Positions 5,632 to 29,420 of a DNA stretch of 32,365 bases are shown piece by piece. Source of the DNA: Aporhodopirellula sallentina SM41 (GTDB lineage: Bacteria > Planctomycetota > Planctomycetia > Pirellulales > Pirellulaceae); the NCBI RefSeq assembly GCF_000346505.1, contig NZ_ANOH01000103.1, forward strand, positions 1 to 32,365. The letters are read 5' to 3'. Under the pieces are notes generated by a model. It was given only the letters and a program-made list of their open reading frames with translations. It had not been told where the DNA came from and ran no database searches. Each line of letters starts with the position of its first letter. Position 1 is the stretch's first letter. A program made the position numbers and the translations under genes.

Positions 5632-5662
5632 CTGCGCATAGTTGATACTTGTTTGCGCAAAG
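5632..5662. promoter_or_regulatory. Proposed XylR-type operator, mutarotase copy
   Basis: Left half CTGCGCATAG and right half GTTTGCGCAA have the same spacing as the sites at 11544-11574 and 14638-14668, with 19 of 31 positions shared with the latter, mostly in the half-sites. It ends 114 bp before the mutarotase start, nearly the same distance as the third site from araD (119 bp). The regulator is inferred, not shown. Confidence 0.6.
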
Positions 5663-5775
5663 ATTTAGTGACCGGGCCAAACCGCACGGCTATCCTTGGC
5701 GAGCGTGCCTTTTCAAACGCACTCGTCTGCTCACCGGTTCGATGTCCCCACATCCAAATTTGGCCTCTCTATCTC

Positions 5776-6879
5776 ATGGCAACTTCCTTGATTCGAAGAC
5801 TCTTTCTGCTCGTCGTCACGGCAATCATGACATGCTGCATCGCTCCTGCCGCAGAGGTTTCGGATTTTGACTCCATCAACCTCTACACGCTGACCAACCA
5901 AAACAACATGGTGGTAAAAATCACCAACTATGGCGCGACCATTACCTCGATCATCGTCCCCGACCGCAACGGCGACATGGCGGACGTGGCTCTCGGTTAC
6001 GACAACGTGGAAAGCTACATCAACGCGGCGAATCGACCGTATTTCGGCAGTGTCGTCGGTCGCTACGGCAATCGCATCGCGCAAGGCCAGTTCACTCTCG
6101 ACGGCAAGGAATACACTCTTGCTACCAACGATGGTGAAAACCACCTTCACGGAGGACAGATGGGCTTCGACAAAGTCGTCTGGGACGCCGAACGAGTCGA
6201 CAACGGTGTCAAAATGACTTATCGAGCCCGCGATGGCGAAGAAGGCTACCCGGGAAATTTGACCTTGAGTGTCTCGTATACGCTGACGAATGAAAACGCA
6301 ATCGTCATGCACTACGAAGCCACCACGGACAAACCAACGGTCGTCAACGTCACCAATCACACCTACTTCAACCTGGCCGGAGAAGGGGAACCGACGATAA
6401 ACGACCACATTCTCCGAATTAACGCGTCCAAATTCACACCCGTCGATTCAGGACTGATTCCTACCGGCGAACTCCGTGACGTGGCAGGAACGCCTTTCGA
6501 CTTTCGCGCCCCCAAACCGATCGGGCGCGACCTTCAGTCAAACGATCCCCAACTGCAACACGGCCTCGGTTACGACCACAACTGGGTACTCGACCGGGAA
6601 GAGGCCGGACTCGAATTGGCCGCGACTTTGTATGAAGCTCATAGCGGCCGCGTGCTCGATGTGCTCACCACCGAACCCGCGATTCAGTTCTACGGGGGCA
6701 ACTTTTTGAACGGAAACTTGATCGGCAAATCGGGCAAGCCTTACCAACACCGCAGTGGACTTTGCCTGGAAACACAACACAGCCCAGACAGCCCGAATCG
6801 CCCCGAATGGCCGAGCACCACCCTGCGTCCCGGCGAGAAGTACGAGACCACCACGGTCTATCGCTTCGGAGTGAAATAG
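5776..6879 (+). CDS. galM: Aldose 1-epimerase (mutarotase)
   Basis: This 367-residue GalM-family enzyme interconverts alpha and beta anomers of free aldoses. Visible family signatures are GRYGNRIAQGQF, NHLHGG, the NHTYFNLAG block with the catalytic His, GYDHNWVLD (substrate-binding Asp) and GLCLETQ with the catalytic Glu. A leader (MATSLIRRLFLLVV to about APAAE) indicates export, as in many periplasmic mutarotases. The start at 5776 is chosen for this leader; the frame is open from a TTG at 5653, which would bury it. It lies downstream of the lyase and 137 bp before a GH43 gene, behind a proposed operator, so L-arabinose released outside the cytoplasm is the likely substrate (inference). Confidence 0.93.
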   Translation: MATSLIRRLFLLVVTAIMTCCIAPAAEVSDFDSINLYTLTNQNNMVVKITNYGATITSIIVPDRNGDMADVALGYDNVESYINAANRPYFGSVVGRYGNRIAQGQFTLDGKEYTLATNDGENHLHGGQMGFDKVVWDAERVDNGVKMTYRARDGEEGYPGNLTLSVSYTLTNENAIVMHYEATTDKPTVVNVTNHTYFNLAGEGEPTINDHILRINASKFTPVDSGLIPTGELRDVAGTPFDFRAPKPIGRDLQSNDPQLQHGLGYDHNWVLDREEAGLELAATLYEAHSGRVLDVLTTEPAIQFYGGNFLNGNLIGKSGKPYQHRSGLCLETQHSPDSPNRPEWPSTTLRPGEKYETTTVYRFGVK

Positions 6880-7016
6880 CGACAACGCAACGCGTCTGTC
6901 GGAAAGACGCATCTTCTTGCAATCCCGCCTGACATGATTCACCGCGAATAACCGTGGATGCCTCGCTCTACACGTGTACGGCGTGGCTTCGTTCTCCTCT
7001 GACGATACGAAACGAA

Positions 7017-8036
7017 ATGCGCACCATTCTCTGTTTTCTTTTGATCACTGCGACTGCAGGAGCTGCCGAACCAAAACTTCAGTGGCCGAACCCGATTCTT
7101 TGGCAACGCGCCGACCCGCACGTTACCTTGCATAGCGACGGATGGTACTACTTCACCGCAACGGTCCCGCAATACGATCGCATCGAACTGCGGAAAGCAA
7201 AAACGCTTGGCGAATTATCCAACGCCGAGGCAAAAGTCGTCTGGCGAAAACACGACAACGGTCCAATGAGCCATCACATCTGGGCCCCCGAGATCCATTT
7301 TATCGATGGCAAATGGTACATTTACTTCGCAGCCGGACGTGCCGAGGCGATCTGGGATATTCGCCAATACGTACTCGAGTGTGATGCCTCCGACCCACTC
7401 GAAAGTCCGTGGGTTGAAAAAGGCCAGCTCAAGATGAACTGGGAATCATTCACCTTAGATGCCACCACCTTCCGGCACCTCGGAAAGAGATACCTCGCGT
7501 GGGCGCAAAGCGTTCCGGAAGAACGTGGCACGCGGATCTTTCTCGCTGAAATGGACACGCCTTGGTCCATCACCGGACAACAGGTAGCGATCACCAAACC
7601 GGATCTGCCTTGGGAACGCATCGGACATAACGTCAACGAAGCTCCCGCGTTTATTCACAGAAACGGAAAACTCTTCATGACGTATTCGGCCAGCGCAACG
7701 GATGCGAATTATTGCCTTGGCTTGCTTACCGCCGATGAGAATGCCAACCTGCTCGATCCGAAATCGTGGATCAAATCACCAACCCCAGTGCTGAAGAGCC
7801 ATCCCGAAACCAGCCAATTCGGCCCTGGACACAACTGCTTCACCACCTCACCCGACGGGAACACGGATATCTTGGTTTATCACTCCCGCGACTACGAAAC
7901 AATCAAGGGCGATCCTCTGAACAACCCGGACCGTGCAACACGCGCGCAGGTGCTGCTGTGGAACGATGACGGTACACCCAACTTTGGCGTGCCCGTCGCT
8001 AACGACCGAAACGGAACCGCCCGCCCGCGTAGGTGA
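7017..8036 (+). CDS. GH43-family glycoside hydrolase, probable alpha-L-arabinofuranosidase
   Basis: This 339-residue single-domain five-bladed propeller enzyme has a short signal peptide (1-16, ending AGAAE). The GH43 catalytic triad is readable: Asp33 in RADPHV, Asp148 in TLDAT and Glu208 in NVNEAP, with GPGHN (His272) as in other family members. The motif HIWAPEIHFIDGKWYIYF (87-104) is typical. The start at 7017 is preferred over a GTG at 6954 because it begins the signal peptide. Likely co-transcribed with the mutarotase. It is expected to trim arabinose from pectic arabinan; xylosidase activity cannot be excluded from sequence. Confidence 0.92.
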   Translation: MRTILCFLLITATAGAAEPKLQWPNPILWQRADPHVTLHSDGWYYFTATVPQYDRIELRKAKTLGELSNAEAKVVWRKHDNGPMSHHIWAPEIHFIDGKWYIYFAAGRAEAIWDIRQYVLECDASDPLESPWVEKGQLKMNWESFTLDATTFRHLGKRYLAWAQSVPEERGTRIFLAEMDTPWSITGQQVAITKPDLPWERIGHNVNEAPAFIHRNGKLFMTYSASATDANYCLGLLTADENANLLDPKSWIKSPTPVLKSHPETSQFGPGHNCFTTSPDGNTDILVYHSRDYETIKGDPLNNPDRATRAQVLLWNDDGTPNFGVPVANDRNGTARPRR

Positions 8037-8240
8037 CTCACCATCCACGCCTGCGGTACCAACTGCGTGTCGACAACCGTCAATCCAAGATTGCGATGAG
8101 AACACTGCAGGCGACAGGACACCCGAACGGACAGGGCTGCGGCAAACGAACCGGACATGCCCTCGCGGTTTTTGGATTTCGATGTGTTTGAATCTCGCTA
8201 CGATTCGAGATCGCTTGGGTAAAGGTCTCTGGGTTGGAAC
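8037..8240. other. Convergent intergenic gap
   Basis: The stretch lies between the ends of the GH43 gene (plus) and the UnbV gene (minus). A 6-bp stem (ATCTCG / CGAGAT around 8192-8211) is present without a T-run. I see no gene and no convincing terminator. Confidence 0.3.
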
Positions 8241-11200
8241 TCATTGGGTAGTCGCGACGTTTTGGTCAGTAGATAGATCGTAGGCATCGTGGTCGGCCTC
8301 GACACACAGCCATGTCACATTGGGCTTTAATCCCGGATAACGTTGCTGCGTTCCACAGGCCCACTTCACCACGACGTCGCACTCACCGGCAGACTCGCCT
8401 AACCCGACCCGCAGAATCCGCTCGTTGCTGCACAGGTAACCATCGCCCGACGTCAGCGGCACCACCCAGCGCCGATCGTTGGATTCAATTTCGACAACGG
8501 CACCAATGGCATCCCGCGAGCAATCTCGCCCCACCAACTGCAACCCGATCCAATCACCAGACTCTTCGGTTTGATTGACCAACAACGCGACCGGTTCGGT
8601 TTGATGAGTGATGACTAGATCCGTCCGCCCGTCACGGTTGGCATCGACCGTCCACAGGGCCCGCCCGACATGCGTGGCACTGATGTATTCTCCGTCAATC
8701 AGCTCAGCAATCGATTCATAATCATCGACGGTATTACGCCGAAAGACTTGCATCGGCTGCGCATACGAACCGGACTTCTCACCTGGATAACGATCCACGT
8801 GACCGTTGGTGACAATGAGTTCGAGCCAACCATCATTATCGAGATCCACGGCCTGCGACCCGAACCCCACCATCGGTAACGTGGCCGAATACAGTCGCTG
8901 CGGCATCGTTTGGTCTCGCCAGCCCCCCGGACTCAGTTGGTCGTGATAGGTATTACACTCCTGATGGAAATTCGTGACGAAGAGATCGAAGTCTCCATCG
9001 CGATCGAAATCTCCTGTCGCCAAACCCATGGACCCTTGATACGGCGAATCATTGCTCGCCCCCAGTCCTCGAACGATCGCGGATTCCTTCAAGGAATATT
9101 CCTTACTCTCGGATCTGCTCCAGTAGTGGTTGCTTGACTGATCGTTGGCGACAAAAAGATCCACGCCGGGTACTTGGTCAAGGTCACCCGCAATCACACC
9201 GAGTCCTCGGCCGAGGTTCGACGCGGTGGGCTGCAACGATGCCTGGTCGGCAAACTCTCCCGTCTGAGAGTTCAAGCAAAATCGATCCGCTGCTGCTTTG
9301 AAATTGAGCGGGGCGCAGGCTCGTGCGAGACTCTTGCTCGTCCCAAAACATTTCTTGGTTACCGGTTCGAGACCTTTTCCGTAGTTAAGAATCGTCAGAT
9401 CCGCCAACCCGTCTTGGTTCCAATCAGCGATCGCACCGCTCGATGACCAAACGACTTCCTGGCCCTCGCTCGGCAACCGTTCGCTCGCGTCAGTGAATGT
9501 GCCATCGCCGTTGTTGATAAATAGAACATTCGGACCGTAGTTCAATATCAATAAATCGGGAAAACCATCTTCGTTGACATCCCCGACTGCGACTCCTTGA
9601 CCAAAACCGGTGTCATCGGTCCCAGACTCACGGCTCACGTCGACAAATGTGCCTCCTCGATTGATCCAAAGTGCATTCGGACTCGAATCTCGATTTGGCG
9701 GGGTGCCGCCCGCCGCCGCGAAGTACAAATCCGGCCAGCCATCGAGGTTGTAGTCGATAGCTCCACCGCCACAGCCCAACGTTTGGTAATGCATCACTCC
9801 TGGACGATCCAGGTCATCAGCCGTACGCCCAAAGAACGTCAACGATCGCTCATTCGCCTCATTCTTCAATCGCAGACGTTCGGAACGCCGGCAGATGCGC
9901 ATTTGCTTCTGGTCTCGTTGGTCAGCGATTCTTCCAAGCGAATCCAATCGCGGAACAACGAGATGGCTAAGATCGATCCGTAACTCGGGGTGCTTCTCAT
10001 CAATCTGCCAAGGAGTGTCTTTTCGCAACGAACACACGATCGACTCACGAATCTGAGCAACCGGCACAGCAGGATCGCGAGGTAGCCGAGTCGCAATCGC
10101 GGCCCAGGCTTCGGCCTCCCATAGACGCCCCAGGTTTTGCAGGGCTTCGGCAATTTCAACAGCAACAGCCTGCGAAGGATAGGTGCGAAATCGTGTCGTC
10201 GCATCGCTAAAAAGGGTCAGCAACCTTACTCGATTCTCAACAGAAGAAAGAGTCAAATCATCAATCCCGTGAGTCTCGTGATCGAGTTGCCTCAGCGAAG
10301 TCGCTAGTTTGAGCCAATATTCGCGGCCATCTGCGTCCCGCCGCGCCGCCTCCCAGTACGCTCGCGCTGCCTCCGGTTGCCGACCGGCGTACCAGCACCA
10401 ATCACCCACGGCTAACCAATAGTCGGGATAGCCATCGATGCCGTCAGAGAGTTCGACCGGGAGTTTCGCAAACTCGTCGTACGCAGCCTTTGCGATCAAC
10501 ACACGACATAGCAGTGCGTTGGCGGGCAAGTGTTCGGGGTGAGTCTCGAGAACCTGACGGAGAGTCGCTTCTGCCCGCGTGAACTCGCCCTGATCGAAAC
10601 GATACTTTGCTTCGGCAACGAGAGGTCGCTTGTCTCGCGGATGACGCTTGGCCATCGCCACAAAAGACTCCAATCGATCCGTTCCCGATTCGGTGGAACT
10701 GAGCGTTAACAGCAAAGGCAAATCAAACTGGCGATACTTCACCAAAAGTCGACCGTGAGGAATCGCTCTCCGTCGGTCTTCCGCTCCCCAACACATGTCG
10801 TAAAAGTATTGTCGAATCTCATGCAAATTTGGATCGACTTCCAACGCATCTTCAAAAAGGTCCAGACAATCGTATAGCCGCCCGACCTTCAACAATGCCT
10901 CCATCGCTCTCTTGATCCCCGCCACATCTTGAAAATTCTCGGCACGGCACGCATCCATCACAAGTTCTGCAGCAACGTCGGGCTTTCCAACTTTCTGAGC
11001 GACATTTGCGACCAGGTAAATCACCTCCGCGTCATCCGGATGTTGCGTCAAGGCAGCGTTGGAACCTTCCCATGCCTCCTGCCAGCGTTCCCGCTCAACG
11101 GCTAAACGCAAACGTTGCAAAGGATCGATCTGTGAGTCCACTGGTATCGGCCCCAGCTTTCTCTCTGCCGGCATACTCTCGTCGGTTCGGCTGCAACCGA

Positions 11201-11276
11201 ACTGCGCGCACAACGACAACGCGGCACCGACAATGCCCCAAACAATCTGACTACGATAAACAAGCAATGAACTCAC
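8241..11276 (-). CDS. TPR / FG-GAP repeat / ASPIC-UnbV (CRTAC1-like) lipoprotein
   Basis: This 1011-residue protein starts with a hydrophobic leader and a lipobox ending at Cys28 (QFGC), so it is probably lipid-anchored outside the cytoplasmic membrane. Residues about 50-420 are helical TPR-like repeats. Residues about 500-880 form FG-GAP/VCBS propeller repeats with calcium-loop motifs such as DYNLDGWPDLYF, DVNEDGFPDLLILN, DFDRDGDFDLFVTN and DANRDGRTDLVITH. The end (about 905-1000, GDWIGLQLVG to the final Trp) is an ASPIC/UnbV domain. Such proteins are common in Planctomycetes but of unknown function; binding of carbohydrate or protein is plausible. It diverges from the DUF1559 gene across a region with a copy of the proposed arabinose operator. 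Confidence 0.9.
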   Translation of the reverse strand: MSSLLVYRSQIVWGIVGAALSLCAQFGCSRTDESMPAERKLGPIPVDSQIDPLQRLRLAVERERWQEAWEGSNAALTQHPDDAEVIYLVANVAQKVGKPDVAAELVMDACRAENFQDVAGIKRAMEALLKVGRLYDCLDLFEDALEVDPNLHEIRQYFYDMCWGAEDRRRAIPHGRLLVKYRQFDLPLLLTLSSTESGTDRLESFVAMAKRHPRDKRPLVAEAKYRFDQGEFTRAEATLRQVLETHPEHLPANALLCRVLIAKAAYDEFAKLPVELSDGIDGYPDYWLAVGDWCWYAGRQPEAARAYWEAARRDADGREYWLKLATSLRQLDHETHGIDDLTLSSVENRVRLLTLFSDATTRFRTYPSQAVAVEIAEALQNLGRLWEAEAWAAIATRLPRDPAVPVAQIRESIVCSLRKDTPWQIDEKHPELRIDLSHLVVPRLDSLGRIADQRDQKQMRICRRSERLRLKNEANERSLTFFGRTADDLDRPGVMHYQTLGCGGGAIDYNLDGWPDLYFAAAGGTPPNRDSSPNALWINRGGTFVDVSRESGTDDTGFGQGVAVGDVNEDGFPDLLILNYGPNVLFINNGDGTFTDASERLPSEGQEVVWSSSGAIADWNQDGLADLTILNYGKGLEPVTKKCFGTSKSLARACAPLNFKAAADRFCLNSQTGEFADQASLQPTASNLGRGLGVIAGDLDQVPGVDLFVANDQSSNHYWSRSESKEYSLKESAIVRGLGASNDSPYQGSMGLATGDFDRDGDFDLFVTNFHQECNTYHDQLSPGGWRDQTMPQRLYSATLPMVGFGSQAVDLDNDGWLELIVTNGHVDRYPGEKSGSYAQPMQVFRRNTVDDYESIAELIDGEYISATHVGRALWTVDANRDGRTDLVITHQTEPVALLVNQTEESGDWIGLQLVGRDCSRDAIGAVVEIESNDRRWVVPLTSGDGYLCSNERILRVGLGESAGECDVVVKWACGTQQRYPGLKPNVTWLCVEADHDAYDLSTDQNVATTQ

Positions 11277-11803
11277 CTTCTCGCGATGCTCGAGAAACTC
11301 TGCGACAAGAAACCGATTCGAATATGAATGAGCCGATCGGCGTTAGCCGCGGTTTCCAGGATATCCCCGAAACCAGCGTCTGGGGGCTGATCAATTTACC
11401 GAGGTGATCGGATAAAACCTAAGCGTCGCGGTGGTGGAAAATTGCAACGTGCGTCGTCGCGCAACCTTCCGGTTACACGAGTGCCGCCCTCACCGGTGCC
11501 GCGACTTGGTTCCTCACAATGCGGTTTGCTCATCCGTTGCCCCATACGCAAAAACGACATTTTTGTGCGCAATGCCGGATAGAATACCCGAGAACCAAAC
11601 CTATAATTGCCCCTAACGTTCAAGAGTGTCACCTAAACGCGTTCCTCTTGGACAACCGATCCCAATACCGGGAAAGGCGTTATTTCCCCTTGAAACTGTT
11701 TTGATTGGTGCCGCGGATTTGTTTCCAAAACACCTTTCGGCCTTCGCCGTTTAGAAACAGTCCGATTTTGTTCATCGTTATAAATTGAACTGGAGTTGCA
11801 GAC
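11277..11803. other. Divergent intergenic region with one operator-like palindrome
   Basis: This 527-bp region separates the UnbV (minus) and DUF1559 (plus) genes. Besides the palindrome at 11544-11574, there is a TATAAAT at 11779-11785, rather near the start codon, and a GGAG at 11792-11795, eight bases before the DUF1559 ATG. Open frames here have no recognisable protein and I treat them as chance. Confidence 0.55.
11544..11574. promoter_or_regulatory. Proposed XylR-type operator, DUF1559/UnbV copy
   Basis: Half-sites ATACGCAAAA and TTGTGCGCAA flank a core acgacatt. The site matches the one at 14638-14668 at 27 of 31 positions, which is far beyond a chance half-site. It lies 230 bp before the DUF1559 start and 268 bp before the UnbV start, so it could serve either or both. 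Confidence 0.72.
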
Positions 11804-13045
11804 ATGAGTCCTCAAAGAGTTTGCCCACAGAAGGCAAAACGAGCATTCACACTGGTGGAATTGCTTGTTGTGATCGCGATCATTGGTGTGTTGGTCGGGT
11901 TGCTCCTGCCCGCCGTACAAGCGGCCCGCGAGGCCGCACGTCGCATGAGTTGCAGCAACAACTTCAAGCAAATCGGATTGGGACTCCACAACTATCACGC
12001 GGCCTTCAATCAAATCCCGACGCACATGGGCGGAACCCAATCCAGCGGTGGCGGCACGAACCAACTCAACAACCAGCAGATCCTCAGCTACCTCGTCGGA
12101 ATCTTGCCATTCGTCGAGCAGCAAGCATTGTGGGAACAGATTTCCAACCCCAACGCTAGCAACGCCGATGGCTCGGCTAAGTCGCCGCCGTGGCCTGCCA
12201 TGGGCCCCGCCCCTTACATCGGAACGTACGGACCGTGGGCGACGGAGATTCCAACCTTCCGCTGCCCAAGCGATCCAGGGAAGGGACTGCCATCGCTCGG
12301 CCGCAGCAATTACGCCGCATGCGTTGGCGACGACGCGATGACCAATTACGGTCCCTACCACCCTTGGTTCGGTGGCGAACGATGGGGTGACATTCTCGTC
12401 AACGACGCTCGGGCGCACTACCGTGGCTTCTTCAAACCGATGTTGAAATCAAGGTTCCGTGATGTTCTTGATGGCCTCGCTAACACGATCGCCGCAGGTG
12501 AAATGAACACCGACCTCGGTGACCGAGACATCACCACCGCCGCGTTGAACAACCCGGGAGCATGGTGGAGCCTGACGGACAATCGCAATCACTGCGCGTC
12601 CTTGATTAGTGCCGAGCGTCCTCAGTTTTGGGACGCCTCGGTCCCTCAAGCCTCACCGGGCAGCGACCCAGGCGACGGCGGACTCGTTAACTCCGATTTT
12701 GGACGTGGCTACATGTGGGCAGTTGGCGAACCACTGCAAACATCCTTCACCACGATCAAGGCTCCGAACTCGGAATTGTGCATCATCGACGGTAACCCTG
12801 GGTCAGAAATCATGGCCAGTGCGAGCAGTCGCCACCAAGGCGGGGCACACGTATTGATGGGTGACGGTGCCGTCAAGTTCATCACCGAATCGATTGATAC
12901 CGGATCTCATAACGGCATGGTCTTCTGGGACCACGCCACCAACCGCCCTGGCGCACCAACCGTCCCTGGTTCACCAAGCCCATTCGGACTTTGGGGAGCC
13001 CTCGGCACTCGTGCCAGCAAAGAAGTTATCGACCAAGAATTTTAA
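11804..13045 (+). CDS. DUF1559 prepilin-type protein
   Basis: This 413-residue protein has a type IV prepilin/pseudopilin-like N-terminus ([19 protein letters not shown] from residue 10), where a prepilin peptidase would cut before Phe, followed by the DUF1559 signature [20 protein letters not shown]. Near the end is the family's H-x9-DG motif ([12 protein letters not shown]). The family is greatly expanded in Planctomycetes and has no established function; a pseudopilin-like surface or periplasmic role is inferred from the N-terminus. GGAG lies eight bases before the ATG. It is followed by a 64-residue lipoprotein and a terminator, forming a two-gene unit, with an arabinose-operator-like site upstream. 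Confidence 0.95.
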
Positions 13046-13099
13046 CTGGGCCGAGCTCCATGCTCCGCTGATCCGACCTTATACCTGAAAGAGAATTTG

Positions 13100-13294
13100 A
13101 TGAGAAGGAAGTCTTGGCTGCTGTTGGCCCTGTGCGCTCTCAGCCTGCCGACCGCCGGCTGCGGGCAAGAAGAAAACACGGTGATCCAGACTGATCCCGC
13201 GAGAGAAGAGCGTTTTAGTAACTACGGAGAAACTTCCAAAGATGCCTTCTCAGACCGCTCCAGAGGATCTCGAAGCATTCCCGATCAACAATAA
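13100..13294 (+). CDS. Small lipoprotein following DUF1559 gene
   Basis: This 64-residue protein has a basic N-terminus (MRRKSW), a hydrophobic core and a lipobox PTAGC with the lipid-bearing Cys at about residue 22. The mature part is only about 42 polar residues rich in Ser, Arg and Glu. The start is ATG at 13100; a TTG directly before it adds one codon. It lies 54 bp after the DUF1559 stop and before a strong terminator, so it is very likely co-transcribed. Small lipoproteins of this kind often follow DUF1559 genes in Planctomycetes; no function is known. Confidence 0.82.
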   Translation: MRRKSWLLLALCALSLPTAGCGQEENTVIQTDPAREERFSNYGETSKDAFSDRSRGSRSIPDQQ

Positions 13295-13319
13295 TACAGT
13301 GATGCTTTGAACAACGACA

Positions 13320-13347
13320 AACACGCTCGCAAGAGCGTGTTTTCTTT
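13320..13347 (+). terminator. Rho-independent terminator after the DUF1559 unit
   Basis: A 9-bp perfect stem AACACGCTC / GAGCGTGTT with a GCAA tetraloop is followed directly by TTCTTT. It is 26 bp after the lipoprotein stop. Confidence 0.88.
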
Positions 13348-13445
13348 GTGCCCCGTCGCAATCAACGATGGCGTGCCCCATCAAAATCGCGGGACCACGA
13401 AGGAGTTAAATCGCATAGTGCAGACAACACCCCGGTGAGATCGCT

Positions 13446-14624
13446 TTAGCTGGTTTCATTTCTAATTTGACGGCGAAACCTTGACGGCGTCACACCGTGA
13501 GCTGCCCGGAACACTTGAATAAAATAAGATGGCGTTCCGAAACCGATCGCGTCGGCGATTTGCGGGATCGGCAGATCCGTTTCCAACAAAAACCGCTTGG
13601 CTCGCTCCATTCGCACCCGCTGCAGTTCTTCATGCAACGTCCGACCAACGACCTTCCGAAAACGCGTTTCGATATTTCTCCGTGAAATGGCAACGTATCG
13701 AACCACGTCATCAATCTGAATCGGCTTGGTAGCGTTCTCGTGAATGAATCGCATGGCCGCGGCAACGTCGGAATCTTCGATGGCAAAAATGTCTGTCGAT
13801 CGACGCGTGACAACGTGCAGCGGTTTGGCCAGCAATCGCTGCGGCTTGCGCACCTTCCGTTTCATCATCTGATCCAACAACGCTGCCGCACGAAACCCAG
13901 TGCCCTCGGCATCGAGTGCGACACTCGTGAGCGGCGGATCAGCGAGCTCACAAAGAAGATCGTCGTCATCAACTCCGATCACCGCAAACTCTTCGGGCAC
14001 TCGTATTTCCGCGTTGTAACATGCCTCGAGAACCTCTCGGCCACGGTCGTCGTTGCACGCCATCACGCCTGCTGGCTTGGGAAGGTTCGAAAGCCATTCA
14101 GCCAACTGGTGCTGTTCACGGTCCCACTCTCGTTCACGTTTACTCCGCGGACCCCGGTAAACCTCAACCGAATAACCCGCCTCCTCGATGTGTTTGCAAA
14201 AACTCTGTTCGCGAAGATCGGACCAAACGCGTCCACGCACTCCCACATACGCGAAGTTCTGAAACCGACGTTCGAGCAAATGCTGTGCAGCCAATTGAGC
14301 GGCACCGTACGAATCAGACGAGATCTCGCTGAGCTTCGATAACGGATGATTCGTTTCGCGTTCTTCTTGCTTTAAGTCCAACGCGATCGTCGGCAAACCC
14401 GATGCGAGAACGTCTTTCGCGATTTGAGGTGTCTCGAGTCGCGCGATGATCCCGGCCCCACCCCAACGCTTCATACGAGGCAACGCTTGCTTGAAGTCAC
14501 CAGGCACGAGATAGAAATCCCAAGGCCCGTGCAGTCGTGAATAGCGGGCGATCCCACGCAGCAGTTGCCGCCCATAACCTCGCGACGTCTCAATTAACAA
14601 CGCCACTTTTGCCGAGTCACTCAC
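13446..14624 (-). CDS. XylR-type transcriptional regulator (sugar-binding domain + AraC HTH)
   Basis: From a GTG at 14624 this gives 392 residues, the same length as E. coli XylR. The N-terminal two-thirds (KVALLIETSRGYGRQLLRGIARY onward) is a LacI/periplasmic-binding-like sensor, and the last ~100 residues are an AraC double helix-turn-helix (IDDVVRYVAISRRNIETRF; IADAIGFGTPSYFIQVF). The frame is open further up (ATG 14654, TTG 14681), but the GTG has an AAGGTGG just upstream, fits the family N-terminus, and leaves the palindrome at 14638-14668 outside the gene. It is divergent from the arabinose operon, so L-arabinose rather than xylose is the probable inducer (inference), with likely autoregulation. 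Confidence 0.9.
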   Translation of the reverse strand: MSDSAKVALLIETSRGYGRQLLRGIARYSRLHGPWDFYLVPGDFKQALPRMKRWGGAGIIARLETPQIAKDVLASGLPTIALDLKQEERETNHPLSKLSEISSDSYGAAQLAAQHLLERRFQNFAYVGVRGRVWSDLREQSFCKHIEEAGYSVEVYRGPRSKREREWDREQHQLAEWLSNLPKPAGVMACNDDRGREVLEACYNAEIRVPEEFAVIGVDDDDLLCELADPPLTSVALDAEGTGFRAAALLDQMMKRKVRKPQRLLAKPLHVVTRRSTDIFAIEDSDVAAAMRFIHENATKPIQIDDVVRYVAISRRNIETRFRKVVGRTLHEELQRVRMERAKRFLLETDLPIPQIADAIGFGTPSYFIQVFRAAHGVTPSRFRRQIRNETS

Positions 14625-14637
14625 GTGCCACCTTTGA

Positions 14638-14668
14638 TTACGCAAAAGCGACATTATTGTGCGCAAGG
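14638..14668. promoter_or_regulatory. Proposed XylR-type operator between regulator and araD
   Basis: Left half TTACGCAAAA and right half TTGTGCGCAA form an imperfect inverted repeat (8 of 10 positions symmetric) centred at about 14652. It is 13 bp upstream of the regulator's GTG and 118 bp upstream of araD, a natural place for shared control. A further GTGCGCA at 14683-14689 could be an accessory half-site. Confidence 0.75.
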
Positions 14669-14786
14669 TTTGGATAGTCAACGTGCGCAGACAGAGCTAA
14701 CATCATCTTCCGACGTGCGAGCGTCGCAGCAACTGCCTTCATGACAACCTTGAGGGCTCTCGATTCCCCTCAACATTGACATAGAG

Positions 14787-15527
14787 ATGCTCGACCGGTT
14801 GAAGAAGGAGGTATGTGAAGCGAACCGTGATTTGGTGCGTCATCACCTCGTCACACTGACTTGGGGCAACGTTAGCGGCTATGACTCCGACAGTGAACTC
14901 ATTGTTATTAAACCGAGTGGAGTCTCCTACGAGGAGCTAACACCACAAAAGATGGTCGTTGTTGACCTCGATGGAAACTCCGTCGAAGGCGACTTAAGAC
15001 CATCGAGTGATACGGCGACTCACATGTTGCTGTATCGTTCGTTTATCGGCATCGGTGGGATCACTCATACGCACAGTCGCTACGGAACGGTGTACGCGCA
15101 GGCGCGGTGTGAGATTCCATGTTTGGGGACAACGCACGCGGATCACTTCTATGGTCCAGTGCCTGTCACCCGTCCGTTGACCGAAGAAGAGGTCGAGACC
15201 GGGTACGAAGCGAACACCGGGGCCGTGATCGTGGAACGATTTGCAAACCTGGATCCGCAGTCGATGCCAGCAGTATTGGTAGCCGGGCACGCGCCGTTCG
15301 TGTGGGGACCGTCGGCGAAAAAGTCGGTTGAAAACGCCGTCGCGTTGGAGGCGGTTGCAGAAATGGCATTGGCCACGCAGCAGAGCACTCTGCAGGCCAT
15401 GCAGCAGGGCACGCATAGCGCCCAAGAGTTAGAATCCTACGTGCTTGAAAAGCACTATCGTCGCAAGCACGGGTCGGCCGCCTACTACGGCCAACCTTCT
15501 AACTCCTCTGCAAGCACTCAATACTGA
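14787..15527 (+). CDS. araD: L-ribulose-5-phosphate 4-epimerase
   Basis: This 246-residue class II aldolase-family enzyme converts L-ribulose 5-phosphate to D-xylulose 5-phosphate. Visible are TLTWGNVSG (phosphate site), KPSGVSYEEL, SSDTATH, the zinc ligands in THTHS, GTTHADHFYG, a GHAPFVWG block and the C-terminal HYRRKHGSAAYYGQ with the conserved catalytic Tyr. The length is close to the usual ~231 with a short Ser-rich tail. It is the first gene of the operon with symporter, araB and araA; the next gene starts 13 bp after its stop. No strong Shine-Dalgarno precedes the start. It is presumably controlled by the divergent regulator. Confidence 0.96.
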   Translation: MLDRLKKEVCEANRDLVRHHLVTLTWGNVSGYDSDSELIVIKPSGVSYEELTPQKMVVVDLDGNSVEGDLRPSSDTATHMLLYRSFIGIGGITHTHSRYGTVYAQARCEIPCLGTTHADHFYGPVPVTRPLTEEEVETGYEANTGAVIVERFANLDPQSMPAVLVAGHAPFVWGPSAKKSVENAVALEAVAEMALATQQSTLQAMQQGTHSAQELESYVLEKHYRRKHGSAAYYGQPSNSSASTQY

Positions 15528-15540
15528 TTAGGTCCCCACC

Positions 15541-17232
15541 ATGCAAATCTTTGACTGGGTTGTTGTCGCCATCTATTTCATGGGATTGGTTGCCATTGTG
15601 CACTGGTCCTCCAAACAAATTTCATCGACATCGGATTACTTCCTCGCAGGGCGACACGCCAGTTGGTTTGTGATCGGGGCATCGCTCTTCGCCTCGAACA
15701 TCGGTTCCGAACACATCGTAGGCTTGGCGGGCAACGGGGCGTCTTCCGGGATGGCGATGGCCCACTGGGAATTACACGCGTGGGTGATGTTGTTACTCGC
15801 GTGGGTGTTCGTCCCGTTCTACTATCGCAGCGGTGTCTTCACGATGCCGGAATTTCTCGAACGTCGGTTCGATTCCCGAACGCGTTGGGTGCTGTCGATC
15901 GTCAGCTTGCTGGCATACGTTTTCACCAAAGTGTCAGTCACGGTATACGCCGGGGCTCTCGTGTTCATGAGCCTGCTCCCCGATACGTTTGGCACCCCCG
16001 AAAACGCGTTCTGGGTCGGTGCCTTCGTTACCGTGATTTTGACGGGAGTCTACACCGTTTTCGGTGGACTGCGTGCGGTGCTTTATACCGAGGTGGCACA
16101 AACGGTGGTGCTGCTTCTCGGGTCGTTCTTCATTACTTGGTTCGGACTGCGAGAACTCGGCGGTTGGGGAGAACTGCAGGCGACCGCGTCGGCATCAAAA
16201 GCCGAATTCGCATTGTGGCGTCCACTCGTTCAGGAGGGTGTGCCTTGGTGGAAAAACGGCGACTTCCCTTGGCTCGGTATTTTGATCGCCTCGCCCGTGA
16301 TCGGCATCTGGTACTGGTGCACCGACCAATACATTGTCCAACGAACACTGGCTTCGAAAGACCTGACCGAAGCACGACGCGGCGCCATCTTTGGCGGCTT
16401 CCTGAAGGTCTGGCCGGTGATGATCTTCCTGATCCCCGGCATGATCGGTTGGGCTCTTCATCAAAAAGGCAGCATCTCCATCCCAACGCGGAGCAGTGGT
16501 GAGATTGATGGCGACCAAGTCTTCGCCACGATGGTGACCGGACTGCTTCCAATCGGTTTGCGTGGTCTCGTGGTCGCGGGATTAATGTCGGCCCTGATGA
16601 GCTCACTCGCATCACTGTTTAATTCGTGTGCGACTCTGTTCACGATCGACATCTATGAAAAACTCCGACCAGGTAAAACCGAAAAGCACTACGTCTACAT
16701 CGGTCGCTTGGCAACGGTTGCTGTCGTCATCGCGGGCCTGATCTGGATCCCGATTATGAAAGCGATGGCAGGCGGCGGCATCTACAAATACCTGCAAGGT
16801 GTCCAAAGCTATCTCGCGCCTCCGATCACTGCCGTCTTTCTGCTCGGACTCTTCTGGCGACGGGTCAATGCGACCGGAGCGTTCTGGGGATTGATCATCG
16901 GCTTCGTCCTCGGAATGGGCAAACTGACCGTCGAAGCCGTCACGACTTCCCTGGAAGTACAAAGCGGAATTTGGAAAGACATCGCGGACTTCAATTTCCT
17001 TTACTACTCCGGCGTCTTGCTGCTTATCAGTGTCGCCATCGTGGTCGGTTTGTCATTGCTGACGGAATCGCCGGGAGAGGAAAAGACGAACGGTATCACC
17101 TGGGGCGGGCTGTCGCCAGAAGACCGCTTGGCGATTCGAAACAGTTGGACTGCCACCGATGTCGTCGCCTCCGTGGCTGTCCTCGGTATGGTCATCGGCG
17201 TTTACCTCTATTTCAGTTTTTGGTTGAGTTGA
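15541..17232 (+). CDS. Sodium:solute symporter (SSS family), probable L-arabinose importer
   Basis: This 563-residue integral membrane protein begins in TM1 (WVVVAIYFMGLVAIV) and carries the SGLT-like TM2 signature GASLFASNIGSEHIVGLAG, then ADACLY-like loops and many hydrophobic helices to a final TM at the C-terminus (about 14 in all). The family couples Na+ influx to uptake of sugars, amino acids or similar solutes. Its place between araD and araB, with small gaps on both sides, makes L-arabinose the likely substrate; the sequence alone does not prove it. It is the only transporter in the window and would serve at the cytoplasmic membrane. Confidence 0.93.
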   Translation: MQIFDWVVVAIYFMGLVAIVHWSSKQISSTSDYFLAGRHASWFVIGASLFASNIGSEHIVGLAGNGASSGMAMAHWELHAWVMLLLAWVFVPFYYRSGVFTMPEFLERRFDSRTRWVLSIVSLLAYVFTKVSVTVYAGALVFMSLLPDTFGTPENAFWVGAFVTVILTGVYTVFGGLRAVLYTEVAQTVVLLLGSFFITWFGLRELGGWGELQATASASKAEFALWRPLVQEGVPWWKNGDFPWLGILIASPVIGIWYWCTDQYIVQRTLASKDLTEARRGAIFGGFLKVWPVMIFLIPGMIGWALHQKGSISIPTRSSGEIDGDQVFATMVTGLLPIGLRGLVVAGLMSALMSSLASLFNSCATLFTIDIYEKLRPGKTEKHYVYIGRLATVAVVIAGLIWIPIMKAMAGGGIYKYLQGVQSYLAPPITAVFLLGLFWRRVNATGAFWGLIIGFVLGMGKLTVEAVTTSLEVQSGIWKDIADFNFLYYSGVLLLISVAIVVGLSLLTESPGEEKTNGITWGGLSPEDRLAIRNSWTATDVVASVAVLGMVIGVYLYFSFWLS

Positions 17233-17322
17233 CGCCGTCTCCACGAGGGGCGTCATCGCCGGCATTCGCGGATCACACCACGTTTGATCGTCGAACAGAG
17301 TATCTACAAGGAGCACAGAAAA

Positions 17323-19056
17323 ATGCCGTACACGCTTGGAATTGACTATGGATCCAACTCCGTTCGTGCGATCGTAGTGGACGTTGCTGATGGGTTCGAA
17401 CTAGGCAGTTGCGTGTTTGATTACCCCAGCGGACAGCAAGGTATCTTGCTCGATCCGCAGGATCATCACCTCGCCCGCCAACACCCCGGCGACTATCTGC
17501 TCGGCTTGGAAAAGTCCGTGCGAGGGGCCATCGAAAACGCGTCCAACGTTGCCGGTTTCTCCGCCGACAAAATTATCGGCATCGGCGTTGATACCACCGG
17601 ATCCAGCCCAATCCCGGTCGATGAAAACAATATCCCATTGGCGTTAAACGAATCATGGTCGAAGTACTTGGCGGCGCAGTGTTGGTTGTGGAAAGACCAC
17701 ACCAGCCACCAGGAAGCGGCCACGATCACTGCACTCGCCAAGGAACATCGGCCGGATTACATCGCCAAGTGCGGCAACACCTATTCGTCGGAATGGTTCT
17801 GGAGCAAGATTTGGCACTGCCTGAATTCATCACCCGATGTATTCGACGCCGCGTTCAGTTGGGTCGAACTGTGTGACTTCATTCCTTCGGTTCTGGCAGG
17901 AGTGAATGACCCGCGGGAAATCAAACGCGGGATCTGTGCCGCCGGGCATAAAGCGTTGTACAGCGACCAATGGGGTGGCCTGCCAGACAAAGAGTTTCTA
18001 TCAATGCTCGATCCGGCACTCTCCGAACTTCGTGATCGCCTCTACGAAACGGCGTACGATGCCACCGAAGCCGCTGGCACACTGTGCGACAAATGGGCGA
18101 ATCAACTGGGGCTGACTGCCGGAATCCCGATCGCCATCGGTGAATTCGATGTGCACTACGGTGCCATCGGTTGCGGTATCGACGAGGGAACGCTCGTCAA
18201 AGTCATCGGCACCTCGACGTGTGACTGCGTGGTTGTCCACGAAAGTAAGTCCATCGCGGATATACCGGGCATCTGCGGCATCGTGCCAGGCGCCATTTTG
18301 CCAGACTACTACGGTATCGAAGCCGGGCAGAGTGCCGTCGGTGACATCTTCAAGTGGTGGGTCGAAGGCGTGTGCGGGGGTGATGCCGCGCTGCACGCGA
18401 GACTCTCCCTCGAAGCCGAATCTCTCGCGCCCGGCCAAAGCGGTCTGCTCGCTCTCGATTGGAACAACGGCAATCGCACAACGCTGGTCGATCCGATGCT
18501 CAGTGGTTTAATGCTCGGGCAAACGCTGCACACCACTCGCGCGGAAATCTATCGTTCGTTGATCGAAGCGACCGCCTTTGGAGCCCGAACCATTATCGAA
18601 CGCATTGCAGAATATGGTGTCCCGATTGATCGAGTCGTATGTGCTGGTGGTATCGCAGAGAAGAACCCGTTGCTGATGCAGATTTACGCCGACATCACCG
18701 GCTGTACGATGCTCGTTGCCGGATCGAGCCAAGCGTGTGCACTCGGCGGCGCCATATCCGCCGCGGTCCTCGCCGGGGAACATCCTAACTTCCGTACCGC
18801 GCAGGACTCGATGACTTCCCTCAAAGACGTCAGCTACCGCCCCATTGCCGCAAATCAGATAATTTACGACCAACTCTTCACGCTCTACCGTCAAATTCAC
18901 GATTCCTTCGGTGGCGTTCGCCATTCAGTCGATCTTTCCGACGTGATGAAGGAACTCATCCAAATCAAAACGTTGTCGCAGAAACCCGATCATTCCTCTG
19001 ACACCGACACTCAACCAACAGAAGCCCGTCCCCACGTCGAACTCGTCCGCTCATGA
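17323..19056 (+). CDS. araB: Ribulokinase
   Basis: This 577-residue FGGY-family kinase phosphorylates L-ribulose to L-ribulose 5-phosphate. It begins with the phosphate-1 loop [16 protein letters not shown] and has [37 protein letters not shown], a Trp-rich lid ([14 protein letters not shown]), [22 protein letters not shown] and the C-terminal nucleotide motif [19 protein letters not shown]. The length is normal for AraB. AAGGAG nine bases before the ATG at 17323 supports this start over a TTG at 17284. Its stop overlaps the start of araA by four bases (ATGA), so translation of the two is probably coupled. Confidence 0.96.
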
Positions 19057-20567
19057 GCAACATGCCAAAACCCGAAATCTGGTTTATCACCGGTTCACAA
19101 CACCTATACGGCGAAGGACCTCTCAAACAGGTCGCGGAAAACTCGCAGCAGATCGTCAACGAATTGAACAAATCTGGGCGTTTGCCGTTGAACCTGGTTT
19201 TCAAACCGATCGTCACCCGTCCCGAAGAAATTCGCGCACGTTGCCTGGAAGCCAACAACTCCGAAGACTGCGCAGGCGTCATCCTTTGGTGCCACACCTT
19301 TTCGCCTTCCAAGATGTGGATCGGTGGCTTGCTGCAGCTCGCCAAACCGGTATTGCACCTTGCGACTCAGTTCAATCGAGATTTGCCATGGGCAGATATC
19401 GACATGGACTTCATGAATCTGAACCAAGCCGCTCACGGTGATCGCGAACATGGATTCATTCACACGCGTCTGCGTCTCGGACGGAAAGTCGTCGTCGGCC
19501 ACTGGAGTGATGAGGAAGTCCAAGACCGAGTCGCCGTTTGGATGCGGGTCGCCCACGCCTGGGCTGATTGGCAGGGAGGCAAGTTCGTACGCATCGGCGA
19601 TAACATGCGTTACGTTGCCGTGACCGAAGGCGACAAGGTAGCGGCCGAAGCACGATTCGGCTTCTCCGTCAACACGCACGGCGTCGGCGACCTGGTTGAG
19701 GCCATGAACGGGATCAACGAAAGTGCGGTCACTGACTTATGTGCTCAATACGAATCGCAATATGATGTCGCCGCCGCTCTCCGTCGCGGAGGCGAACGCC
19801 ACGACGCACTTCGCTACAACGCCCGCCAAGAACTCGGACTGCGAGCCTTTCTCGAAGATGGCGATTTCATTGGCTTCACCGACACGTTTGAAGACCTGCA
19901 CGGCCTGACGCAGTTACCAGGCTTGGCGGTACAACGGTTGATGGCCGACGGCTATGGCTACGCGGGTGAAGGCGATTGGAAAACCGCTGCACTCGTTCGT
20001 GCAATGAAAACCATGTCCGCCGACATGCCTGGTGGGACGTCCTTCATGGAAGACTATACCTATGAACTGAACCCCAACGGACAACTCGTCCTGGGATCTC
20101 ATATGCTCGAGATCTGCCCGTCGATTGCCTCGCATAAACCGACAATCGATATTCATCCGCTGGGGATTGGTGGTCAGGACGATCCTGTACGAATGATCTT
20201 TGACGCACACGAAGGTGCCGCAGTCAACGTCGCGATGATGGACCTTGGGAATCGGTTCCGGTTGCTGGTCAACGAGGTGGATGCGATCAAACCACCTCAT
20301 GATCTGCCCAAACTTCCGGTAGCCCGCGCGGTTTGGAAGTGCCGGCCTGATCTAAAAACCGCTGTCGGATCGTGGATCTATGCCGGTGGTGCCCACCACA
20401 CCGGATTCAGCTACAGCGTGACGACCGAGTACATCGAAGACCTCGCAGAAATCGCTGGAGTTGAAGTCGCGATCATCGACGCGGAAACCAAACTAAGAGA
20501 CTTCAAACAAACGCTCCGAAACAATGAAATCTACTATCACATCGCCCCCGGACTCGGCAGGATGTAG
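19053..20567 (+). CDS. araA: L-arabinose isomerase
   Basis: This 504-residue enzyme converts L-arabinose to L-ribulose. Family blocks are [10 protein letters not shown] near the start, [25 protein letters not shown]-like [69 protein letters not shown] and GGAHHTGFS. The Glu of MED and MLE and the His of DIHPLG and GGAHH are the metal and catalytic ligands of the family. The start ATG overlaps the araB stop; a second ATG three codons on is possible. It ends 36 bp from the converging GH16 gene with no obvious terminator between. Confidence 0.97.
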
Positions 20568-21434: not shown

Positions 21435-21797
21435 CGAACGCTCTCTCGTTTTCGTTTGACAGAGATGCAAAGTGGACCTTCCACCTCGCGATTCCTGTCG
21501 CTTCATCTTTCATCAGAACTAGACGACCAAAGAAGTCGGGCACTGCGGCATCGATCGCCTGCGCGGGCATCACGCTCTCGGTTGTAGAACCTTGATTCAA
21601 ACATACCCACAGAGCAATGCCCCCAAGACCCAACATGGGGCCATCAGCGTGATATCGATATTTTTCTGCGTGGAATTGCATTGAACGATCAAGCGTATTG
21701 AGAGACCATCTCTCCATCGAGTTCGATGCAAGCGCATCTTCCCTCCCACATCTCGTTCCTCCCCCCTATCCCCACTCGCCTTAACAAAGGCCCCCCA
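21435..21797. other. Divergent intergenic region between GH16 and GH51 genes
   Basis: This 363-bp stretch should hold promoters for both genes. I see no copy of the TTGCGCAAAA-type palindrome, no strong hairpin and no convincing small gene. A short GCCCC / GGGGC stem near 21617-21640 is the only symmetry noted. Confidence 0.4.
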
Positions 21798-24284
21798 ATG
21801 AACAACACGTTTGAACGCGTACGCGGAGCCTGCTTCGCCAAGTACAACACCGCGCTAATACTGGCAACCTTATTGACCCTCACTGCCATGAACGTAGCCG
21901 ACGCGGAAGGAACCGCTGAGATCCAAGTCTTCTGCGATCAACCTACCGTCGAACTCAGCCCTCACTTGTATGGTCTGTTTTTTGAAGACATCAACTACGC
22001 GGCCGATGGTGGATTGTATGCAGAGTTAGTGCAAAACCGCTCGTTCGAATACTACTCGCTTACAAACAATCGTCGTGGACAAGGGCTCCATCCTCTCTAC
22101 GCTTGGAACACGATCCAACGAAGCGGCGGTCACGCGGAAACCCAAGTCACCGACGCGGAACCGCTGAACCCGAACAATCGCAATTATGTCGAATTGCAAA
22201 TTACAAAGAGTGGCGAAGTCGGTGTGAGTAACAAGGGCTACGACGGAATCCATTTGGATCAAGGTGCCCGCTACAACGTGTCACTCTACGCGCGTGCGAA
22301 GGACTGGTCCGGTGACTCATCATTAACGATCAGGCTCGAATCGAAAGATGGCTCAGACTGCGGGAGCGTCCGCCTGCAAGGTGTCGATGGCGACTGGAAA
22401 AAACTAGAAGGCATCATCACTGCGAACCAGTCAACCGACGAAGCCTCCCTACTCGTAACCACCTCGGGGGAAGGCACGCTGCACCTCGACATGGTTTCGC
22501 TATTCCCTCAAAACACTTTCAAGGGACGCAGAAACGGACTGCGAAAAGACCTGGTCCTGGCGTTGAAAGAATTGAATCCGAAATTCTTTCGTTTTCCCGG
22601 CGGTTGCATCGCCCATGGCAGCGGGTACGACAACCGATACAACTGGAAAGACAGCGTCGGCGACATCGCCCAACGCAAACCAAACTGGAACCTGTGGGGC
22701 TACCACCAATCATACGGACTCGGGTTCTTCGAGTATTTTCAGTTGTGCGAAGACCTCGAGATGGCTCCACTTCCGGTCATTCCGATCGGAGTGGGCTGCG
22801 GTTTTCGTGGCAACGATTTCGTCCCGATCGATGAACTCGGGCCGCACATCCAGGATGCCCTCGACCTCATCGAGTTTGCGAACGGCCCAACAACGAGTCT
22901 GTGGGGACAACTGCGTGCGGAAATGGGCCATCCCAAACCGTTCAACCTCGAGTTTGTTTGCCTCGGCAACGAAGAACATGACACGCCAGACATGCGTCAA
23001 CGGTTTCCCTTGTTTTCCAAAGCGATACGCGAAGCCTATCCAGAGATCAAAATCATTGGAACCTCTGGGCTCGGCGCAGGAATCCCGATCTATGATCTGA
23101 TGACCAAGGACAACGTCTACAGTTCGGACGAGCACTATTACATGCCGCCGAATTGGTTTCTCAAAAACGAAGGCAGGTTTGACGATTTCGACCGGAACAA
23201 ACCGCTGATTTTTGTTGGCGAGTACGCCGCGCATGACCACGGACGCAAGAACACTCTGTTCTCAGCGATTTCGGAAGCAGTATTTCTCAACGGTGTCGAA
23301 CGCAATGCGGACATGGTCGACATGACCTGCTACGCACCACTGTTCGGCCGGAAAGGACACTGCCAGTGGAACCCGGACTTGATCTACTTCGACAAACGCA
23401 ACGTCGTTCGCACAGCCAACTACTACGTGCAACAACTATACGGCCAAAACAAAGGCGATGTCTTTCTGAACAACGAGGTGGCCATGAAAACAATAGGCCG
23501 CCCATCTACCGTATCTGGACAAATTGGAATCGGAAGCTGGAACACGACGATCGAAGTCGAAAAAGTGACCGTAAACGGACGCGATGTGTCCCCGACCAAT
23601 TGGAAAGTTCTTAGTGGGACCTACTCAGACAAAGATAATCACTACTACCAAACCGATAAAACCGCAACGCCCGCGATGAGTCTCGGCCGAGAGGTGATTG
23701 ACGGTGAAACCGTATCCATTGAAATACGAGCCCGCAAAACAGGAGGCTCCGAAGGTTTCTTGGTTCGCTTTGGTGCGGATGCCAAAGGCAACGGTGGCTA
23801 CTGGTGGAACGTCGGCGGTTGGAACAATACACGACACGGACTGGAGGAACTCTCCGGACGAGCGGCAACCGTTGACAGTGTAGGTGGATCGATCGAGACC
23901 AACCGATGGTACGACCTGACCGTTGAGTTGTCGCCAGGACAAATTCGGTGCTACATCGATGATCAACTGATACAACAGTACGAGATCAAACCCGCCGAAC
24001 TCAGTTTGTCCTCCACGTACGACCAATCCACAGGCGAGGTGATCCTGAAAATGGCAAACCCAACCGCGGATTCGATCCAGACTCATGTGAACTTAGCGGG
24101 CGCTCAACAAGTGGCGAATACCGCAACGCTCATTTCTCTCTCAGGTACGAAAGACGCTACCAACACCTACGAGAATCCTGAGAACATCGTTCCTTCGAAA
24201 AGCTCAATCCCCGCGGGCAAACAGTTTTCTCACACGATCTCAGCCTATACGGTCGACGTCATTCGCCTGAAAACCGAACGTTGA
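21798..24284 (+). CDS. GH51 alpha-L-arabinofuranosidase with extra domains
   Basis: This 828-residue exported enzyme releases arabinofuranose from arabinan or arabinoxylan. A signal peptide covers about 1-36. HLYGLFFEDINYAADGGLYAELVQNRSFE opens the GH51 fold. Residues about 100-235 look like a CBM4/9-type carbohydrate-binding insert. FRFPGGCIAHGSGYDNRYNWK is the family's barrel strand, Glu392 in CLGNEEHD is the acid/base and Glu475 in VGEYAAHD the nucleophile. Residues about 590-735 form a LamG-like beta-sandwich (GFLVRFGADAKG, NRWYDLTVEL, IRCYIDDQLI) inserted in the C-terminal arabinofuranosidase domain, which resumes to the end. Start 21798 places the signal peptide first; the frame opens at 21726. 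Confidence 0.95.
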   Translation: MNNTFERVRGACFAKYNTALILATLLTLTAMNVADAEGTAEIQVFCDQPTVELSPHLYGLFFEDINYAADGGLYAELVQNRSFEYYSLTNNRRGQGLHPLYAWNTIQRSGGHAETQVTDAEPLNPNNRNYVELQITKSGEVGVSNKGYDGIHLDQGARYNVSLYARAKDWSGDSSLTIRLESKDGSDCGSVRLQGVDGDWKKLEGIITANQSTDEASLLVTTSGEGTLHLDMVSLFPQNTFKGRRNGLRKDLVLALKELNPKFFRFPGGCIAHGSGYDNRYNWKDSVGDIAQRKPNWNLWGYHQSYGLGFFEYFQLCEDLEMAPLPVIPIGVGCGFRGNDFVPIDELGPHIQDALDLIEFANGPTTSLWGQLRAEMGHPKPFNLEFVCLGNEEHDTPDMRQRFPLFSKAIREAYPEIKIIGTSGLGAGIPIYDLMTKDNVYSSDEHYYMPPNWFLKNEGRFDDFDRNKPLIFVGEYAAHDHGRKNTLFSAISEAVFLNGVERNADMVDMTCYAPLFGRKGHCQWNPDLIYFDKRNVVRTANYYVQQLYGQNKGDVFLNNEVAMKTIGRPSTVSGQIGIGSWNTTIEVEKVTVNGRDVSPTNWKVLSGTYSDKDNHYYQTDKTATPAMSLGREVIDGETVSIEIRARKTGGSEGFLVRFGADAKGNGGYWWNVGGWNNTRHGLEELSGRAATVDSVGGSIETNRWYDLTVELSPGQIRCYIDDQLIQQYEIKPAELSLSSTYDQSTGEVILKMANPTADSIQTHVNLAGAQQVANTATLISLSGTKDATNTYENPENIVPSKSSIPAGKQFSHTISAYTVDVIRLKTER

Positions 24285-28842: not shown

Positions 28843-28883
28843 AAAACGTGTCACGTTCGACATCGTCGCGACAAGGTAACGAC

Positions 28884-29417: not shown

Positions 29418-29420
29418 GAC

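Follow-up and report, generated by a model that had tools for sequence, protein, structure and literature searches.

A shared operator-promoter element predicted to define an L-arabinose regulon of a XylR-type activator in Aporhodopirellula sallentina

The stretch of DNA considered here (the window) is the 32,365-nucleotide contig NZ_ANOH01000103.1 of the planctomycete Aporhodopirellula sallentina SM41, and the genes around the three copies of the element with which we are concerned form an L-arabinose locus. A XylR-type regulator gene stands beside araD, a sodium:solute symporter (SSF) gene, araB and araA, after which come GH16, GH51-type and AbfB-GH43 enzymes; the other flank holds RGL11, mutarotase, GH43, UnbV and DUF1559 genes (Table 1). 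These neighbours point to L-arabinose, rather than D-xylose, as the most likely predicted ligand. Originally an arabinose regulon was predicted in which one XylR-type regulator would act through a common operator, and both the conservation of the element at orthologous promoters and its rank in genome searches support this prediction; very probably, in our judgment, the element is the operator-promoter of an L-arabinose activator encoded by this adjacent gene.

Taking the operator core as 29 bp, we call the three copies A, B and C. Recomputation over 31 bp returned the identities first given, 27 of 31 between 14638-14668 and 11544-11574, and 19 of 31 between 5632-5662 and 14638-14668. All three copies are intergenic, as was claimed, given the likely starts of the regulator (GTG 14622-14624, preceded by AAAGGTGG and 13 bp from operator A), araD (ATG 14787) and the mutarotase gene (ATG 5776); under most upstream TTG starts in a mechanical list of open reading frames, operators A and C would overlap a frame. 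The spacing of half-site centres, put at about 19 bp, needs correction, the boxes lying 21 bp apart.

The element is rare in the genome. With up to three mismatches, TTGCGCAA-N13-TTGCGCAA occurs at 40 places in 8.19 Mb, three of them in this 32-kb contig (probability ~5e-4), and a backwards control pattern is commoner, with 171 places; at two mismatches only three places remain in the genome, two of them in this contig. A stricter pattern matched twice in the window against 0 in 100 shuffles, and twice in the whole genome. We also built two sequence-only models from sites of other genomes, R1 from an alignment of ten sites and R2 from 16. When R1 was run on the own genome, with 150 of 1976 first-look candidates scored, the window sites ranked 1, 2 and 3 (18.5, 16.7 and 15.2 bits; next, 11.5), at E-values kept modest (0.02-0.26) by the divergence of these sites from the model; the weight of the result is that all three top sites lie in one 32-kb contig. 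R2 returned the identical top three (18.1, 17.5 and 16.9; next, 12.9). A motif scattered over the genome without relation to sugar genes is thus not what was found, and a chance resemblance or a mobile repeat, in place of a regulatory site, is hardly credible in the face of the shuffles, the genome ranking, and the conservation and fixed promoter spacing described below.

A probable fourth site, operator D, had been missed. Scored with a matrix built on sites of other genomes, 21645-21673 receives 15 and no further place in the window reaches 8; in random sequence, counting one strand, a score of 14 is reached about 13 times in 30 Mb. The site lies 52 bp 5' of the GH51 gene, a gene type preceded by the site in other genomes as well; in the whole-genome searches neither R1 nor R2 listed it at E 10.

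The distance from element to promoter is nearly fixed. In a set of 12 sites, each oriented to its sugar or DUF1559 gene, a TANNNT hexamer starts 29-31 nt after the 29-bp core at 10; the eleventh has TANNNT at 32, and the twelfth (L065, whose identical counterpart L066 was left out of this set and of R2) has TAGAAC at 31. With shuffled flanks the best 3-nt window averages 2.5 and 0 of 500 trials reach 10, and the upstream flanks reach 1. Across all loci collected, TANNNT lies at 28-32 nt in 39 of 58 distinct sites of score at least 20, a set that mixes ara and paralogue sites and in which the strand was chosen by score. The -35 is only weakly visible, as weak conservation at site positions 38-39. 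At three loci (L095, L101 and L112) a -10-like hexamer stands at 28-29 nt on both sides, and these may be bidirectional promoters. The element thus appears to be directional, marking the promoters of araD, mutarotase-GH43 and DUF1559. The earlier placement of A at araD and of C at mutarotase-GH43 stands; B, with TATAAT 29 nt downstream of it, is therefore oriented to DUF1559, and UnbV, on the wrong side of operator B, was rejected as a target.

This geometry bears on the mode of regulation. In the class II arrangement of AraC-type activators the site directly precedes the -35, its distance from the -10 is constant, and activation of transcription depends on the ligand. If transcription is taken to begin about 12 nt beyond the first -10 base, the site here covers roughly -72 to -44, close to the position of AraC at araBAD, and the fixed distance of an AraC-type activator promoter was found at the 10 of 12 and 39 of 58 sites above. 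One might instead suppose that the regulator is mainly a repressor and that the sites block RNA polymerase until sugar binds, as its LacI-like ligand domain and the nearness of operator A, 13 bp, to its own likely start codon would allow. We think this very doubtful, considering that the sites stop short of the -35 at a fixed distance from the -10, where an AraC-type activator would sit, and that PMC12125979 presents both E. coli XylR and Vibrio XylRA as activators.

The regulator itself carries PBP1_XylR, Peripla_BP_3 and HTH_18 in that order, all over the Pfam cut-off, and its residues 5-384 match E. coli XylR (4fe4) at E 1.3e-67; like that protein (PDB 4fe4, 4fe7) it combines a LacI-like ligand domain with an AraC DNA-binding domain over its full length. 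It was rejected as an AraC orthologue, the NCBIfam AraC equivalog scoring 63.6 against a cut-off of 208 and matching residues 274-388 only. For Vibrio XylRA, two direct repeats in the operator and xylose-responsive activation are described (PMC12125979), and on our two-repeat reading the present operator would resemble it; the repeats there are called AT-rich, in contrast to the TGCGCAA box here, and the genes here are for L-arabinose, not xylose as with E. coli XylR and Vibrio XylRA.

At araBAD of E. coli, AraC binds the tandem half-sites araI1-I2, 21 bp apart and beside the -35. The present system would share with it both the tandem 21-bp half-sites and the control of araBAD-type genes, and differs in that the regulator is not AraC and the box sequence is another one. 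The original prediction had taken the element for an inverted repeat, a reading that recomputation does not support: inverted pairing reaches 8 of 14 in each of sites A-C and 4 of 14 in D, the core YGAnAT (GAYAT) lacks symmetry and has a direction, and most sites have the -10 on a single side. The element reads better as a tandem AraC-type site, with TGCGCAA boxes every 21 bp. Because TTGCGCAA is its own reverse complement, each ara site alone can be read either way, and the upstream regions of 83 paralogues are more telling: CGCA direct repeats peak with 14 at the 21-bp period, where other gaps give 0-5, and inverted pairs come to only 4 at the corresponding gap, where others give 0-3. Several of these upstreams hold non-palindromic boxes in direct order, TGTCGCA twice (L217) and GTCGCA twice (L223), and in the own genome TGCCGCA and TGTCGCA (L175, G000:C183) or TGTCGCA with AGCCGCA (L174, G000:C238) form 21-bp direct repeats, as if each paralogue had its own box code. 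Two weakly conserved positions, 33 and 38, correspond to positions 12 and 17 of the core shifted by 21 bp, position 38 perhaps being the -35.

Some observations favour a true palindrome bound by a symmetric dimer and tell against the tandem part of our model. Besides the self-complementary box, each box is weakest at its outermost positions, two sites (L099, L100) are near-palindromic with a GATATC core, and the -10s on both sides at L095, L101 and L112 are at equal distance. Less specific tests in the 83 upstreams also weaken the tandem reading: exact 8-mer repeats gave no signal, direct exact 6-mers have period 21 in 17 and periods 15 and 23 in 14 each, and exact 7-mers have period 15 in 10 against period 21 in 8, so that k-mers do not single out 21 clearly and only the CGCA-specific count carries weight. 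Weighing the oriented core, the poor pairing and the direct repeats of the paralogues, we regard a palindromic operator as improbable.

The element is conserved with close homologues of its presumed regulator. Of 241 genomes of the family, 11 (own included) match the regulator at E 1e-100 or better, as do 54 of 396 genomes of the order; a search with the single protein for related loci gave only five remote relatives. For close homologues the motif is retained at the regulator-araB or regulator-araD promoters of related Pirellulaceae: elements with at least 13 of 16 box positions stand at such promoters in L061, L063, L065, L066, L067, L068 and L070, 5' of GH51 genes in L062 and L068, and between a regulator homologue and DUF1559 in L069. 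In L068 (genome G003) the regulator is on the same strand as araB, not divergent, and sites still precede araB and GH51; in G189 the site and -10 are kept at the ara operon although the regulator gene is ~316 kb away. A further site of score 22.6 stands at L068:16243, and a 13/16 match lies inside the L061 GH51 gene.

Over the 241 family genomes, R1 was applied with stricter filters and 30 candidates scored per genome, and 31 genomes had a match with E at or below 0.1. Nine of these have the regulator and hold 19 matches, nine in the model and ten outside it. All ten of the latter precede arabinose (8) or DUF1559 (2) genes, namely the ara operon in G000 and G189, GH51 in G189, G191, G023 and G103, GH127 arabinofuranosidase genes in G189 and G223, and DUF1559 in G000 and G191, with TANNNT at 28-32 in 7 of 10. 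The GH51 gene of G189 was named by similarity to the window gene and that of G103 by a site identical to that of G023 and a next gene of equal length; G023 and G103 being of one genus, the ten amount to about nine independent cases. The G191 DUF1559 site overlaps a 160-aa open frame without a Pfam match. The araA gene, present in 14 of 241 family genomes, occurs in 10 of 11 with the regulator against 4 of 230 without (Fisher p 7e-14, related species not being independent). No site was seen at the two araBAD operons with intact upstream in genomes without a regulator match (G111, G112); contig ends cut the operons of G118, G221 and G222, which stand outside this comparison. With R2, one match at E 0.3 or better came from each of 3 among 11 genomes of the same genus that lack the regulator (G005, G008, G011).

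Several points weigh against our interpretation. No TANNNT was found at 28-32 for site D, G023:C1:2303057, G103:C6:177994, G191:C1:7334273 and L065/L066. No element of 13/16 appeared in the ~20 kb each of L064, L071, L072 and L073; in L073 a 49% homologue is divergent from araB and the box is not kept, which suggests that the more distant homologues (~50% identity), which often lack this box, have an altered box or another arrangement. At the order level, 8 of 31 homologue upstreams reach 13/16 at the 21-bp period, two of them (L007, L058) model-building loci; other gaps reach it once in 124. The upstreams of L131, L132 and L134, with ara genes nearby, stay below 13/16, the araA region of G062 (regulator homologue 47% identical) has no site, and G222 and G224 (48-51% homologues) gave no model match. 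Lastly, the box is not arabinose-specific but goes with a group of XylR-type regulators: R1 also matches in genomes without the orthologue, annotated in part, several times beside XylR-type genes of 31-38% identity (L092, L093, L096, L102, L103, L108, L109). The motif by itself therefore does not mean arabinose, and the ligand can be inferred from the genes only.

Such very similar sites beside paralogous regulators in other genera would fit the idea that the window sites are bound not by the adjacent regulator but by a different one among the 13 XylR-type paralogues detected in this genome. We consider this quite improbable, since site presence tracks the orthologue and the ara operon, no further place in the own genome exceeds 11.5 bits with R1, and 2 of the 11 own paralogue upstreams examined (L174, L175) carry 21-bp repeats of other boxes.

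Among these matches in genomes without the orthologue, the scanned neighbours are DUF1611 in G030 and G084, followed in G030 by an enolase-like gene, a beta-lactamase-like/S11 protein and then an M19 dipeptidase gene (also G030), SSF, SIS and AnmK genes (G087) and AnmK (G118). These look like peptidoglycan recycling genes, and the sites (L254, L255, L256, L257, L104), some beside another XylR-type paralogue, likely mark a muropeptide regulon; G085 and G086 (L096, L092) hold near-identical sites. In one genus of another family (L270, L271; G480, G052), a site with a -10 at 30 nt precedes a GH2-family glycosidase; strong sites without TANNNT at 28-32 precede laminin-G-like domain protein genes in L262 and L266 (G343, G513). 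In the window, an ECF sigma factor gene and then a FecR-laminin-G protein gene (28848-31148) adjoin the arabinose enzymes.

Returning to the activator model, we propose that two protomers of the adjacent regulator would bind head to tail to half-sites 21 bp apart, each a TGCGCAA box followed a few bp on by YGAnAT, with the downstream half-site abutting the -35 region. Bound to L-arabinose or a derivative as its most likely ligand, the regulator would then activate sigma-70-type promoters with the -10 about 30 nt downstream of the site, presumably those of araD-SSF-araB-araA, mutarotase-GH43 and DUF1559, and perhaps weakly GH51. Operator A, beside the regulator's own start codon, probably also permits self-repression.

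Table 1. Coordinates of putative operators, promoter hexamers and genes in the window
Feature	Position	Strand	Remarks
Operator A	14638..14666	+	between XylR-type regulator and araD; boxes TTACGCAA and GTGCGCAA, 21-bp period
Operator B	11544..11572	+	5' of DUF1559 pilin-like gene
Operator C	5632..5660	+	5' of mutarotase-GH43
Operator D	21645..21673	+	weaker, only probable; 5' of GH51-type arabinofuranosidase; no TANNNT at 28-32
-10-like TAACAT, araD promoter	14698..14703	+	31 nt after operator A
-35-like TAGTCA, araD promoter	14675..14680	+	17 bp before -10; weak
-10 hexamer TATAAT	11602..11607	+	29 nt after operator B
-10-like TATCCT	5691..5696	+	30 nt after operator C
XylR-type regulator	13446..14624	-	PBP1_XylR, Peripla_BP_3, HTH_18; likely start GTG 14622-14624
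araD, L-ribulose-5-phosphate 4-epimerase	14787..15527	+	above cut-off for subfamily model NF006047, below it for equivalog TIGR00760
Sodium:solute symporter (SSF)	15541..17232	+	
araB, L-ribulokinase	17284..19056	+	equivalog NF003154 over cut-off; TIGR01234 below
araA, L-arabinose isomerase	19053..20567	+	equivalog NF002795 over cut-off
GH51-type alpha-L-arabinofuranosidase	21726..24284	+	ASD1_dom, Alpha-L-AF_C
Aldose 1-epimerase (mutarotase)	5776..6879	+	scanned from 5779
GH43 glycosidase	6954..8036	+	3' of mutarotase
DUF1559 (PF07596) protein	11804..13045	+	prepilin N-terminal motif

The pilin-like DUF1559 target is the surprise of the analysis. Adjacency to XylR genes alone (4 of 31 homologue loci) was set aside as a link, as it could be chance for a many-copy family. 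A DUF1559 gene is the matched downstream gene at 5 of 40 oriented sites with a -10 (L069, in the models; L081, the window; L252, L277, L280), that is 12.5% of sites against ~1.3% of genes (91 own-genome matches out of an assumed 7000 genes; binomial p 1.7e-4 at 1.3% and 1.2e-3 at 2%), the search for downstream genes having relied only on similarity to genes of the window, in a site sample that is not random. Another place, G000:C430:12162-12188 (L083, L245), a little over 100 nt before a different DUF1559 gene, was not counted (11.5 bits, no -10 at 30 nt). The family is called solute-binding, with 74 copies in R. baltica (PMC2754498), or of unknown function (PMC10632474), and planctomycete pili-like fibres are described to bind dextran (PMC5394234, whose main text has no occurrence of DUF1559); we infer the link between DUF1559 and such fibres. 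It is tempting, and we offer it only tentatively, to think that DUF1559 proteins are sugar-induced pilin subunits of polysaccharide-binding fibres, single members being assigned to single glycans by XylR-type activators, with one of the ~91 copies here dedicated to arabinose-containing glycans.

In the open-licence literature, judged from listings, we found no described operator for a planctomycete sugar regulator. With a defined operator and a constant promoter geometry, sugar regulons could be recognised in the genome sequences of a phylum with many XylR-type paralogues. A DUF1559 gene under an arabinose activator would, in addition, make the role of one member testable by simple induction, and so give a handle on a large family.

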